NCBI RefSeq assembly: GCF_000001735.4
Contig: NC_003076.8
Coordinates: 17,983,835-18,047,834 of the forward strand
DNA: 64,000 nucleotides
Reading direction: 5' to 3'
From: Arabidopsis thaliana
Taxonomy: Eukaryota > Streptophyta > Magnoliopsida > Brassicales > Brassicaceae
Made by a program: the position numbers and the translations under genes. A model generated the notes under the pieces. The model saw nothing but the letters and a program-made list of their open reading frames with translations, had not been told where the DNA came from and did no database searches. Positions 787-37,432 of this stretch are shown piece by piece. Positions within the stretch are counted from its first letter, which is position 1. The number at the start of each line of letters is the position of its first letter.

Positions 787-1471
787 ATGAGAAATACAAT
801 TTCCTCAAAAATGGGTCAAGTTCTAATTGTGCTTCTTCTCCTCTGCACCGTCCTTTGCCGTACCGAGTCAGCTCTTCCTTCGGGTCAACATTCAGTCCTA
901 CTAACCGGTTTGTGATTCCATATATTCATAATATTCATGCACACGTTTGTATATTTATTAGTTGATTGATAAGATCCATGAATCATATGGTCTAATTACA
1001 TGGAATATATATATAGGATGTATTTAGGACTTGTTAAAACATTTTAAAGCTGTATTTGTGCTTATGATAATTAGGTTCTCACATATATAGAAAGTTAGAG
1101 AAAACCTAAACTGATACATGAGTACATGTACCAATCCATTCATTGTTAATTGCGTATCAATTAAAAACCTATGAACTGTATAATAGTTACTTTCATAATA
1201 CTTTTTGTTTGGTATGAAACATATACATATATAAAAATTCGATTTATATGTTTTGTTAATTTCTCAATAGTGTAATGTATATGTGTTAATAAATACGACA
1301 AGTAATCTTATTAATTTACAACGTCTAACTATCTTAAATATAATAAAAAACGAAGGAAGGAGATTGATGGGTTCGGGCGCTTCGGGACCAGTAAGATCAT
1401 CGCAGAGTAGCCAAGCTGGTGGACGTTTTAATGATGCTGATCCTATCGCCATAGATTACGGAAAATATTAA
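787..1471 (+). CDS. PROSCOOP12: PROSCOOP12 secreted phytocytokine precursor
   Basis: Two exons, 787-907 and 1356-1471 (GT at 908, AG at 1354-1355), encode 78 residues. Residues 10-28 form a hydrophobic secretion signal (QVLIVLLLLCTVLC), followed by a short variable region, a dibasic RRLM at 42-45 that could be a processing site, and the peptide PVRSSQSSQAGGR at residues 52-64. I recognise this as SCOOP12, with the family's paired serines (S-x-S) at 56 and 58. SCOOP peptides are Brassicaceae signalling peptides perceived at the cell surface by the LRR kinase MIK2, and they trigger immune outputs and affect root growth. A naive reading of exon 2 alone gives a 62-residue ORF lacking the signal peptide, so both exons are needed. 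Locus recalled: At5g44585. The splice choice is supported by the exact 78-residue product. Confidence 0.93.
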
Positions 1472-3735: not shown

Positions 3736-5393
3736 ATGGCAGCTTTGAGTTCTTCCATGACCATCTCATATCTACATTCACTTTCTTGCAACAAAAGTTG
3801 CTTGCTTACATCTCAATTTTCAAAACCCTTGTTTATAAACCAAACTCAGAAGAAACTCAGATTCTCGATTTCCTTTTGCCTCAAGCAAAACGAATCTGGT
3901 ATTGAACAAGTCGAAGAAGAAGAAGAAGAAGAATTTACCGTTGTGACGGCCGTAAAAAGCAGATACAATGAGATTGTTATAGTGGATACTTTTGCTTCTA
4001 GATATCTTCTTCTTGATTCCACTAGTGAGAATTTTTAAAACCCTAATTCCTCTGTTTTTGATATTAGATCCTCTGTTTATAACCTAAGTTTCTCATTATG
4101 TAGGGAATGTGCATAGTGTTATCAATAAAGGAGGCCAGAATTGGACTGGAGCTTATTGGGTATGTTACATTTTTACATCATCATAAAGTTGCAAAAATCA
4201 TAGCTTGAGTTGTTTCTCTGTTGATAGGTAAATGTTGTTATTGTGTTTAATTTTGAATCCTATCAACATTTTTGTTTGAAGGACGAGTCTGCGTGTTTGC
4301 CGCCTATTATCCCTAATGGTCCCATTGCAATCTACGGCTTGGTGAGAAACTACGTGGTGAATCTTATACCGATTGTCTGAGAAGTACATGAACATAGGCA
4401 TGCAATGAGTCAATGATGTGTTTAAATTTTTGTTCATGTGTTTGTTAGGGTGGTGGAACAGCTGCAAGATTGATTCTTGAGTTGTGGCCTTCAACGGAGC
4501 TTGAAGGTTGGGAAATCGATGAAATTGTAAGTAAACTATCGGATTTTCTTGCGGCATTACGTTTGCATATTGGAAAATCTTGAGTTCACTTGTGATTTTC
4601 TTTTATGAACAGTAGTTGATTGAGAAAGCAAGAGACTATCTCGGGCTGTCTGAGCTAGAGATACCGACATCAAAAGGCGGTAGACTTTGTATTCATGTAG
4701 ATGATGCTCTCTCTCCTTGTCAAGATGATTCAAAAAGATATGCTGGTGAGATTTACAGGTTAATGTATGTTGCTTATTCCTTTGTTCTTTTATGAATTCT
4801 TGAATTCTTATGTCGATATTTTAGGGATCATCGTTGATTTGTTCGCGGATGGAAAAGTGCTTGATCAGCTGCAAGAGGTACTTTAATTTGTTATGGTGTT
4901 AGTATTATATAGTCAACTTTGTGACACCGAGTATTTTGAATTCGAGTATGTACAGATTCCAATGTGGCTAGAACTGGCTAGTAGGTTAATGCCTAACGGT
5001 CGCCTTATGGTGAATTGTGCGGGAATCGAAACAGAAGTAAAGAATGGAAAACCAGAGTTGGTGTTAGATGATTTGGCTTGGATGTTGAATTCTACTGTCA
5101 AGATCTTATCAGAAGCATTTCCTGGACAAGTAAGTAACACATTTCATCTTCATATCCTTTTGTTAACTACGCGTTTAAGATAAAAAGAAAAACATCGCGA
5201 TTATTTATTGTTGCAGGTTAGTTGGAAGAGAACACCAGATTCAGAAGGTCTCAACTTTGTGGCATTAACAGGAGGCTTACCTGATCTTAGTGACTGGTCT
5301 AGTAAGGTTCCAGTCCGTTTAAGCGAATCAGTGAAGCTATGGAAGCTTTGCGAGACGGTCCCTTTGCAACTCGGTGCTTTGAATGCATCTTAA
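3736..5393 (+). CDS. Spermidine-synthase-like SAM-binding protein, plastid-type (copy 1)
   Basis: Eight exons (3736-4024, 4104-4159, 4282-4341, 4449-4526, 4616-4745, 4825-4877, 4956-5129, 5217-5393) give 338 residues. The N-terminus is Ser-rich, basic and poor in acidic residues for about 50 residues, as in a chloroplast transit peptide. It is followed by a run of seven glutamates, then the Rossmann-type methyltransferase/spermidine-synthase fold. Visible motifs are YGLGGGTAARL (nucleotide-binding glycine loop), GWEIDEI (acidic residue that would contact the cofactor ribose), HVDDALSP and IIVDLFADG. The true aminopropyltransferase substrate motifs are not obvious, so polyamine synthesis should not be assumed. 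The next gene is a tandem duplicate with identical intron positions. The acceptor before LIEKAR is CAGTAG, since the earlier CAG would introduce a stop. Recalled locus At5g44590. Confidence 0.88.
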
Positions 5394-6032: not shown

Positions 6033-7685
6033 ATGGCAGCTTTGTGTTCTCATTTGACCATCTCATCTCTACATTCACTTTCTCGATACGAAAATTGCTT
6101 CCTTTCATCCCAATTTTCAAAACCCTTGTTCCTAAACCAATCTCAGAACAAACCCAGATTCTCAATTTCATTTTGTCTCAAGCAAAGTAATCATGACGAG
6201 AGGCAAATTCAACAAGACTCTGCCAAAGAAGAAGAAGAAGAAGAAGAAGAGTATTGGGTTGTTACAGCAGTAAGAAGCAGATACAATGAGATTGTTATAG
6301 TGGATACTGCTTCTTCCAGATATCTTCTCCTTGATTCAACTAGTGAGACTTCTTATAACCCTAATTCCTCTGTTTTGGATTAGGGTTTTTGTACTATTCT
6401 ATCCTCTGATTTTTTTAAAACCTTGCTATGTAGAGAATGTGCATAGTGTTATCAATAAAGGAGGCCAAAATTGGACTGGATCTTATTGGGTATGTTAGAC
6501 TTTCTTGCATCAATCTTTTGTTAATGACATTGCTGCAGAAAAAATCATATCTTTGGTTGTTTCTATTTTCAAAAATTGTGGTTTTGTCACAGATAACGTA
6601 AGATTGTGCTTAATTTTGAATCATATCAACAAATTTGTTGCAGGATGAGTTTGCGAGTTTGCCGCCTATTATCCCTAATGGTCCCGTTGCAATCTACGGC
6701 TTGGTGAGAAACTACGCGATGAATCTTGTACCGATTTGATATCCATTGTCTGAGATGTGTTGTGTTGTTGTTTCTTAGGGTGGTGGAACAGCTGCAAGAT
6801 TGATGCTTGAGTTGTGGCCTACAATGCAGCTGGAAGGTTGGGAAATTGATGAAATTGTATGTAAGAAGAAGCTATCTTGACTGACCCGATTAAGATTTTG
6901 CCGCGTTTCGTTGGAATCTTGAGTTCACTGTGATTATGGAACAGTAGTTGATTGAGAAAGCAAGAGACTATCTCGGGTTGTCTGAGCTAGAGAAACCGAC
7001 ATCGAAAGGCGGTAGACTTTGTGTTCATGTAGATGATGCTCTCTCTCCTTCTCAAGATGTTTCAGGAAGATATGCTGGTGAGATTTCAATATCAATATCA
7101 ATATATGTTTGCCTATTCTGGTTCTTATTCTGAGCTCTTATGTCTATTTAGGGATCATTGTTGATTTGTTTGCTGATGGGAAGGTCTTAGATCAGCTGCA
7201 AGAGGTACTTTACATGGTTATGATTGTTAGTATTATTAGTCACATATCGACACTTTACCTGTTGATGTATTGATTTCGATTTTCTTTAGGTCCCGATTTG
7301 GTTAGAGCTGGCTAGTAGGCTAATGCCTAACGGTCGCATTATGGTGAACTGTGCGGGAATCGAAACAGAACTTCAGAATGGAAAGCCTCAGTTGTTGTTA
7401 GATGACTCAGCCGGGATGTTGAATTCCACCGTCAAGATCTTGTCAGAAGCATTTCCTGGACAAGTAAGTAACACATTTCATCTTCATCTTTTGGTTAATC
7501 ACTTGTTTGAATAAAAAGATTAAACTTCGTTTTCGTGGTTGCAGGTTTGCTGGAAGAGAACACCAGATTCGGAAGGTCTCAACTTTCTTGCCTTAACCGG
7601 AGGCTTACCTGATCTTAGTGACTGGTCTAGTAAGGTTCCAGTTCGTTTTTGTGAAGTAGTGAAGCAATGGAAGCTTTGTGAGTGA
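6033..7685 (+). CDS. Spermidine-synthase-like SAM-binding protein, plastid-type (copy 2)
   Basis: Eight exons (6033-6342, 6434-6489, 6644-6703, 6779-6856, 6948-7077, 7152-7204, 7290-7463, 7545-7685) give 333 residues. Every internal exon has the same length as in copy 1 (56, 60, 78, 130, 53 and 174 nt), so this is a direct tandem duplicate. It has the same transit-like N-terminus, a glutamate run of eight, the glycine loop YGLGGGTAARL, and the EIDEI, VDDALSP and VDLFADG motifs. It ends early at KLCE followed by TGA at 7683-7685, where copy 1 continues for about 11 more residues (TVPLQLGALNAS). Family members are annotated as SAM-dependent methyltransferase superfamily proteins; the substrate is unknown. 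Recalled locus At5g44600. Confidence 0.88.
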
Positions 7686-35374: not shown

Positions 35375-37432
35375 TCATTGTCTCGTCCTAAGCAAGCGAT
35401 CTCCAATCGTCCTAATCTCAAACGTCTTCACCGCGAGACCAATATCACGCATTGTGGTATCAAGCACGTAAGGATTGTTCTCATGAACGATACGGGTACC
35501 GTTATAAAGATGACGACAAGGCTCACGACGCTGCGAGATTGAACCATGGTAGTGAAAATAGCGTATTTTCCCTTCCGCTCTGTGATACGTCTTCCCTTGT
35601 AGATGCTGAGACATGTGAACCCCTGTCGCAAATACGTTCCGCGGTTGAACCGCATACTTCCTATCCCGTCGTGGTACTTTCTTCACATCTCTATACGCCA
35701 ATTTCTCAAATCCCCATTTCCTGAAAAACAACACACAATCACATATCAATCATCCAAGAACAAAGATCCACCTAAATAGTAAACATCACAGTTAAAAAAC
35801 CCTACAGGCCTACATAGTCGCATTTAGAATGTAAACACATACATACCCATCAATGTCTAGCTAATTCTGAACTATATCTGGTAACTTTGGAACCTAAAAT
35901 CTAGAAACTTTGAAACAAGTAACCTCAGGACCTAAAGACACAATCCTAGAGACACTGATTCAAATTTACATTGACAATTACACAAACCCATCAACATCAA
36001 ATCCAACCCAATCTCGAATTGGTTTACATAAAAATAGAAATCTAAAAAAGCTAGAATCTTTGAAAACAACTCTCACCCACATGGACCAAGCACTGAAACA
36101 CACTAATGACAAAAGTGTACAAAAAAAAAAGCTCTTTTTACATGTAAATGAATCAGATTCTAAATGCTTAAACCAAATCTATGATTAATCAAATAAAAAC
36201 CCAAACTTTGAAATTTACCTGTAAGTCCTCGCCGGACCATCACCGTCGTAACAAAGCTGACTACTCATAGGCATCTGTTCAATAGTAAACTGAGAATATT
36301 CCTCCAAAGATACCATCACCGACGAAATCGAACTCTTCGCCGGAACATAAATAAACTCATCAACATCGAAGAAAAACATCCACTTCGCCATGAATCTATA
36401 CCTATGCAAACAATCATTCACCACCATGAATTGATTATGATAATAACCATCAAATCTCTCTTGTTCTCTAATATCATGAACAGTAACTCTCCCAAGCTCT
36501 ATCCATGGCTTTAAAACCTCAAACACTTCCTCTGTAATCCCTCCGGCGTCATGTAGAACAAAATGAGATCTTTCACCGAAGAACCTTACATGGTAAGCGA
36601 TCCATTCTCTGATTCTCTGTGGTGATAAGTTGCCGTAGAGAGAAGATCCACAATAGAGATAATCGTACTTCTCTCGCCGGCGGAGATTGGATTCGTAGAG
36701 AGCAAAATCGACGGTGTTTGGAGTTTCGGTGAGTACCGGAATTGAATCGGTGATGTTCCGGTCTGTATCTCCGGTGGTTGCGTGGAGGAGAAGAGTACCT
36801 CCGGTGTTTTTAGGGTTTATCACGGTGTTTGACGGAAAAGTACAGTTTACGACGACGGTTGTGTAAACTCTACCGTAACCCCAATCGGTTAAGATTTTGG
36901 TACCGTCGGTTAAAATCCGGTTATCGGATTGGTTTAGTGGAATCCATTCGCAACGGTAAGTGGGATGAGAGTAAACGTGAAGTGGTTTAGATGATAAACC
37001 GATAACGGCGAATGTGTTAACGCCGCCTCTGTAAGCGTTCATTAACACGAAGTTATAAGCTGCCCAGCCGTAACCAGTAAACGTCCGTTTAATAACGCCG
37101 TTATTTAACACCTTCTCTTCAGTTAACGGCTGTTTCGTAACGCCGTTATCCAACACCGGCTTCTCAGTTAACTTGACAGCGTTATCTAAGACTGGCTTTT
37201 CGACGACGGTGGTGAAGTTGACGGAGGTGGAGTTTACGGCGATGCGTGAGATGCAGAAACGGAGTTCGGAAGCGGAGATGGAGAAAGAAGAAGGTAGAAA
37301 AGGGAGGAGAGTAGCTAAAGTGCAGAGAACGAGTAACGCCATTAGAGCTAGCTTAAGCTCGGCGGAGAAGTTCCATAAGAAACAGATGAGGAGGTTTTTG
37401 TCTTTAGTGTTTTGGTCTCTCTCTTTAGCCAT
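35375..37432 (-). CDS. GALS2: Galactan beta-1,4-galactosyltransferase GALS2 (GT92)
   Basis: Two exons (37432-36219 and 35720-35375) give 519 residues. A short cytosolic tail is followed by a type II membrane anchor (about 25-47, LKLALMALLVLCTLATLLPF), a stem region, and a GT92 (DUF23) domain. The metal-binding DxD is DVD at 356-358 within FFFDVDEFIYV. Further conserved segments are WIAYHVRFFGERSHFVLHDA and, after the intron, KYAVQPRNVFATGVH and RYFHYHGSIS. GALS enzymes extend beta-1,4-galactan side chains of rhamnogalacturonan I in the Golgi. The stem (residues about 78-116) contains three related units, EKPVLDNAV, EKPVLDNGV and EKVLNNGV. Recalled locus At5g44670. Confidence 0.92.

Follow-up and report, generated by a model that had tools for sequence, protein, structure and literature searches.

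Positions 787 to 1471 of the window (the whole 64,000-nucleotide stretch of Arabidopsis thaliana DNA that was analyzed, which a genome search places at C5:17983835-18047834) are, with near certainty, PROSCOOP12 (AT5G44585), whose transcript is spliced from 907 to 1356 to encode a 78-residue apoplastic precursor that is cut by SBT3.5 and carries a MIK2-binding peptide, in the layout that is the norm for its family. This gene was described by Gully et al. 2019 (PMC6382344) with the peptide PVRSSQSSQAGGR, whose letters are identical to those in the window. The same paper reports a family of 14 genes, each with two or three exons, arranged in tandem on chromosomes 1 and 5, all of them with a SIGNALP-positive signal peptide. 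The typical layout of the family has been given as exon 1 for the signal peptide and exon 2 for the SCOOP motif (PMC9784617). The SCOOP family has also been counted at 50 members in Arabidopsis and described as restricted to Brassicales (PMC11331138); our own single-protein searches of the genome reached few relatives, and the figure of 50 is the published one rather than a recount.

The initial annotation had recognized here a two-exon SCOOP12 precursor with its signal peptide in an exon of its own, and the gene, junction, secretion signal, dibasic site and peptide all match the published PROSCOOP12. Its implication that the finding was new is not supported, since the gene, the two-exon layout and the chromosome-5 cluster are all already in print (PMC6382344, PMC9784617). 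SCOOP12 is the best-characterized SCOOP, so that the window teaches nothing new about this gene. The value of the case is mainly as a check, in that a reader without tools spliced the 78-residue precursor correctly from raw sequence. The features are as follows.

787..907, + strand: PROSCOOP12 coding exon 1, 40 codons and one base, with a predicted N-terminal signal peptide; it has paralogous first exons.
787..873, + strand: predicted signal peptide, residues 1-29, its end placed by a TESA-LP stretch common to some paralogs.
908..1355, + strand: phase-1 GT-AG intron of 448 bp, with the same phase in neighboring paralogs (phase 1 being a condition of the scan that found them).
1356..1471, + strand: PROSCOOP12 coding exon 2 including the stop codon, in agreement with the published numbering of R42-R43, L44 to residue 78, and Met45-Gly46.
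1358..1369, + strand: RRLM, residues 42-45, subtilase processing site by its sequence, with cuts reported in PMC13082318 and PMC8448819.
1388..1426, + strand: the SxS-bearing SCOOP12 peptide PVRSSQSSQAGGR, at residues 52-64; the same letters stand in PMC6382344.
1427..1468, + strand: C-terminal tail FNDADPIAIDYGKY, the 14 residues that follow the 13-mer in the sequence.

When 787-907 is joined to 1356-1471, the product is 237 nt long and encodes 78 amino acids with a single terminal stop, as had been proposed, and the published numbering agrees; the precursor reads MRNTISSKMGQVLIVLLLLCTVLCRTESALPSGQHSVLLTGRRLMGSGASGPVRSSQSSQAGGRFNDADPIAIDYGKY. The secretion signal was originally placed 450 bp upstream, and it does lie in a separate upstream exon, at an exact distance of 448 bp. 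The intron is poor in G+C (25%, versus 45% and 47% for the exons). Unspliced, the ATG reading frame at 787 is 42 amino acids long and strongly hydrophobic at its start. A transcript keeping the intron would give a protein that stops after 42 residues, and use of donor 907 with an acceptor at 1360 or 1363 would shift the frame. The model of the gene printed by our scan takes the internal ATG at 811 as its first codon and is 70 aa long; we place the start at 787 because of the published residue numbering.

To the choice of junction we applied a list of all GT-AG joins with donors in 787-1000, acceptors in 1001-1400, an intron of at least about 60 bases, SSQSSQAGGR in frame and no inner stop. Twenty joins fall under this description and two of them give 78 residues, yet G-R-R at residues 41-43 arises only from 907/1356, where T40 and G41 straddle the junction; the other 78-residue join has a leucine at position 42. 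The published R42-R43 and the published TGRRLM/GSGASG numbering therefore fit just one of the 20 joins, and this provides independent support for the junction. A PROSCOOP12 coding sequence of 237 bp is also on record (PMC8448819, 2021). It was amplified from a construct built from genomic DNA, and the figure may for that reason rest on annotation. It is very improbable that another splice form is the main product, whether from donor 911 and acceptor 1360 (78 aa, with L42) or from 907 and 1392 (66 aa, without RRLM). Both of these are open frames with GT-AG ends, and the acceptor at 1356 is A-rich and devoid of a T-rich tract, a feature that usually precedes acceptors in plants. Nevertheless, both clash with the published numbering, and G-R-R/K is retained behind the intron in the paralogs that were aligned, although R-R/K was itself a scan condition.

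The 907/1356 model is accompanied by several observations on the first exon. A published CRISPR line is frameshifted in PROSCOOP12 exon 1, and the guide RNA given for it (PMC6382344) maps to 806-825, within our exon 1, with one mismatch. Comparison of exon 1 with that of the nearest paralog yields dN of 0.32-0.33 and dS of 1.3-1.9 over 39 codons, values that one would expect if the exon codes for protein and is constrained. A Pfam search with the precursor returned no match, and two matches to solved structures (E 0.4 and 1.6) are not significant and were set aside as chance; such absences are unsurprising for a protein so short.

Within the precursor, the predicted signal peptide has a hydrophobic core with a mean hydropathy of 3.37 over 10 residues, as calculated for the model that starts at the internal ATG at 811. 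The RRLM at residues 42-45 matches the RxLx/RxxL subtilase pattern of many SCOOP members. Accounts of the exact cut differ. A 2026 review (PMC13082318), citing Yang et al. 2023, states that SBT3.5 cuts PROSCOOP12 at TGRRLM/GSGASG, between Met45 and Gly46. PMC8448819 places the cut after R43, describes a mass-spectrometry fragment that runs from L44 to residue 78 with the tail still on, and reports that changing R42-R43 to alanine removes one processed band; its authors caution that a site obtained with plant extracts might not fully mirror the situation in vivo. A second 2026 review (PMC13157962) likewise has the cut at RRLM, with a remark that its entry for SCOOP12 is not precisely mapped. 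The claim of a dibasic site before the peptide is thus correct insofar as R42-R43 is present, but the published RRLM site lies 8 or 6 residues ahead of the 13-mer and is not adjacent to it. The 13-mer PVRSSQSSQAGGR combines SxS with a C-terminal end rich in Gly, as is characteristic of PROSCOOP members.

The tail raises a separate matter. Because FNDADPIAIDYGKY contains Asp residues and an Asp-Tyr pair, one could imagine that it holds a processing or modification signal that times the release of active SCOOP12, although we regard this as unlikely. Such a signal might be a subtilase cut that depends on aspartate, or else tyrosine sulfation; Asp-Tyr pairs are linked to the latter. Among five aligned paralog second exons, the tail is 3-6 residues long in four. 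The fifth reads 14 residues to its stop, its row having been trimmed to two for the alignment, and hence a long tail is not clearly unique to PROSCOOP12.

A path from gene to immune response can be given from these parts and from published work. The transcript is spliced at 907/1356 to give the 78-residue precursor, which the signal peptide would send to the apoplast and which SBT3.5 is reported to cut at RRLM. Further trimming would leave an active peptide around PVRSSQSSQAGGR, with presumptive native ends; the peptide is reported to bind the receptor kinase MIK2 and recruit BAK1/SERK4, leading to immune and root-growth responses. In published work, a precursor-GFP fusion has been localized to the plasma membrane and the apoplast, and the same reports describe that BAK1/SERK4 is brought in and that the SxS serines are essential (PMC8448819; PMC7846792; PMC6382344). 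Synthetic SCOOP12 binds MIK2 with a Kd of 3.18 uM by ITC, with co-migration with BAK1 (PMC8448819), and a MIK2-BAK1 complex has been described (PMC7846792). PROSCOOP12 affects defense and root growth as well as leaf senescence and the performance of herbivores (PMC6382344; PMC8984487; PMC11630628). A picture with a single ligand is too simple, however: a proscoop12 mutant does not phenocopy mik2 in ROS production or root skewing, and the authors of that comparison therefore argue that other SCOOPs act on MIK2 (PMC7846792).

Relatives had been predicted beyond the left edge of the window, and they are there, in the known chromosome-5 cluster. PROSCOOP10, recognized by an exact match to its published peptide GDIFTGPSGSGHGGGRTPAP, starts at C5:17979327, which is 4.5 kb left of the window. 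The next gene starts at C5:17980867, 3.0 kb beyond the left edge of the window. Since it contains two SCOOP-type exons and stands between PROSCOOP10 and PROSCOOP12, we take it to be PROSCOOP11. Paralogous exon pairs occur on the same strand at distances of 3.0 kb to about 32 kb from that edge, which corresponds to membership in the chromosome-5 tandem cluster, and the two nearest share the layout and intron phase of PROSCOOP12 (phase 1 again being a scan condition).

Similarity among these genes is distributed unevenly. Seven other first exons can be aligned with that of PROSCOOP12, at 33-65% identity and with rows trimmed at the presumed junction, and a genome search found the PROSCOOP12 exon homologous to paralog first exons with E values of 3.2e-7 and 6.8e-4. 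The second exon is weakly alike in one-to-one comparisons: in a 113.8-kb stretch, the four GRR-type matches to exon 2 that lie beyond the left edge of the window have a best E of 0.098, and blastn gave no significant DNA match of exon 2 among the matches listed. The second exons share an initial G-R, the S-x-S and a pair of glycines, with G-R-R/K after the intron kept in the aligned paralogs (R-R/K being a scan condition); both SxS serines and two glycines are invariant in the six aligned second exons, one row of which is shortened.

PROSCOOP12 is without the middle exon of its two nearest paralogs. We looked for a decayed copy within the intron at 908-1355, and the result was not convincing after eight comparisons: 4 of 300 randomized introns score as high as the real one against the middle exon of the nearest paralog, and 109 of 300 do so against that of PROSCOOP10. 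Loss of a third exon in PROSCOOP12 is possible.

The search for further exon pairs in flanking DNA, as the initial annotation had suggested, located same-strand pairs in 49.8 kb of DNA beyond the left edge. A strict scan called for a start of hydrophobic character, a donor in phase 1, R-R/K directly behind the acceptor, and S-x-S with G-G or G-R no more than a few residues after it, whereas a loose scan accepted S-x-S without the Gly requirement. The strict scan finds a single place in the window, with the acceptor at 1356, none on the minus strand of the window, and seven acceptors in the left 49.8 kb. It recovers PROSCOOP12 by design, because the pattern was set after the family had been seen. 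One of its acceptors in the left stretch, at 17964981, belongs to a proline-rich protein unlike a SCOOP and was rejected. The loose scan gives 13 acceptors in the left 49.8 kb and four places in the window; those at 37294, 37303 and 42940 were rejected, because their starts are only weakly hydrophobic (2.15-2.21) and they lack both a Gly-rich end and any likeness to the family.

These scans bear on whether the 13-mer merely happens to sit beside an unrelated signal-peptide-like reading frame. Small reading frames are common in an AT-rich 64-kb window, and the four loose-scan places exceed what randomized windows produce (mean 0.65, maximum 2). However, the strict scan found nothing in 40 Markov-randomized windows (one strand each), exon 1 is homologous to the first exons of the paralogs, and the published PROSCOOP12 has the same parts (PMC6382344, PMC8448819). 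A chance pairing is already refuted by the published gene and the paralogous exon pairs, and we give it a vanishingly small probability relative to a genuine two-exon PROSCOOP12.

Other features were seen nearby and elsewhere in the genome. About 0.5 kb downstream of PROSCOOP12, at 1979-2198 of the window, lies an inverted repeat with 101-nt arms that are 83% complementary and 18 nt apart. It could be a young hairpin locus; a genome search found no other copy among the matches listed, the second match being its own opposite strand. To the right of PROSCOOP12, reading frames at 3736-4038 and 6033-6383 have similar starts (MAALSS... and MAALCS...) and are seemingly a tandem duplicate pair, for which a Pfam search gave no match above the curated cut-off. 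On the minus strand of a different contig, at C4:10991820-10992155 (L012), there is a SCOOP-like exon pair with a signal-peptide-like reading frame ending in ...SLPRAG and GRRMRSYQTNGEIDAGPSFSGRGGGRIP downstream, which is possibly a published SCOOP member outside both clusters.

Compared with PROSCOOP12 (AT5G44585) as published, the gene in the window has the identical peptide, the family exon structure, the place in the chromosome-5 cluster and the numbering, and is the same gene; the sole difference found against the published description is one base in the guide RNA. PROSCOOP10 (AT5G44580) resembles it in having a signal-peptide exon followed by SCOOP-motif exons, a phase-1 intron and GRKRM/GRKLM after the intron, but differs in its third exon and two peptides (PMC9784617), whereas in PROSCOOP12 there are two exons with a single SCOOP motif. 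CLE, IDA, PIP and CEP are other secreted, post-translationally modified peptides with which the family has been compared (PMC6382344). Their motif is different (PMC7846792), whereas SCOOPs contain SxS and are perceived through MIK2.
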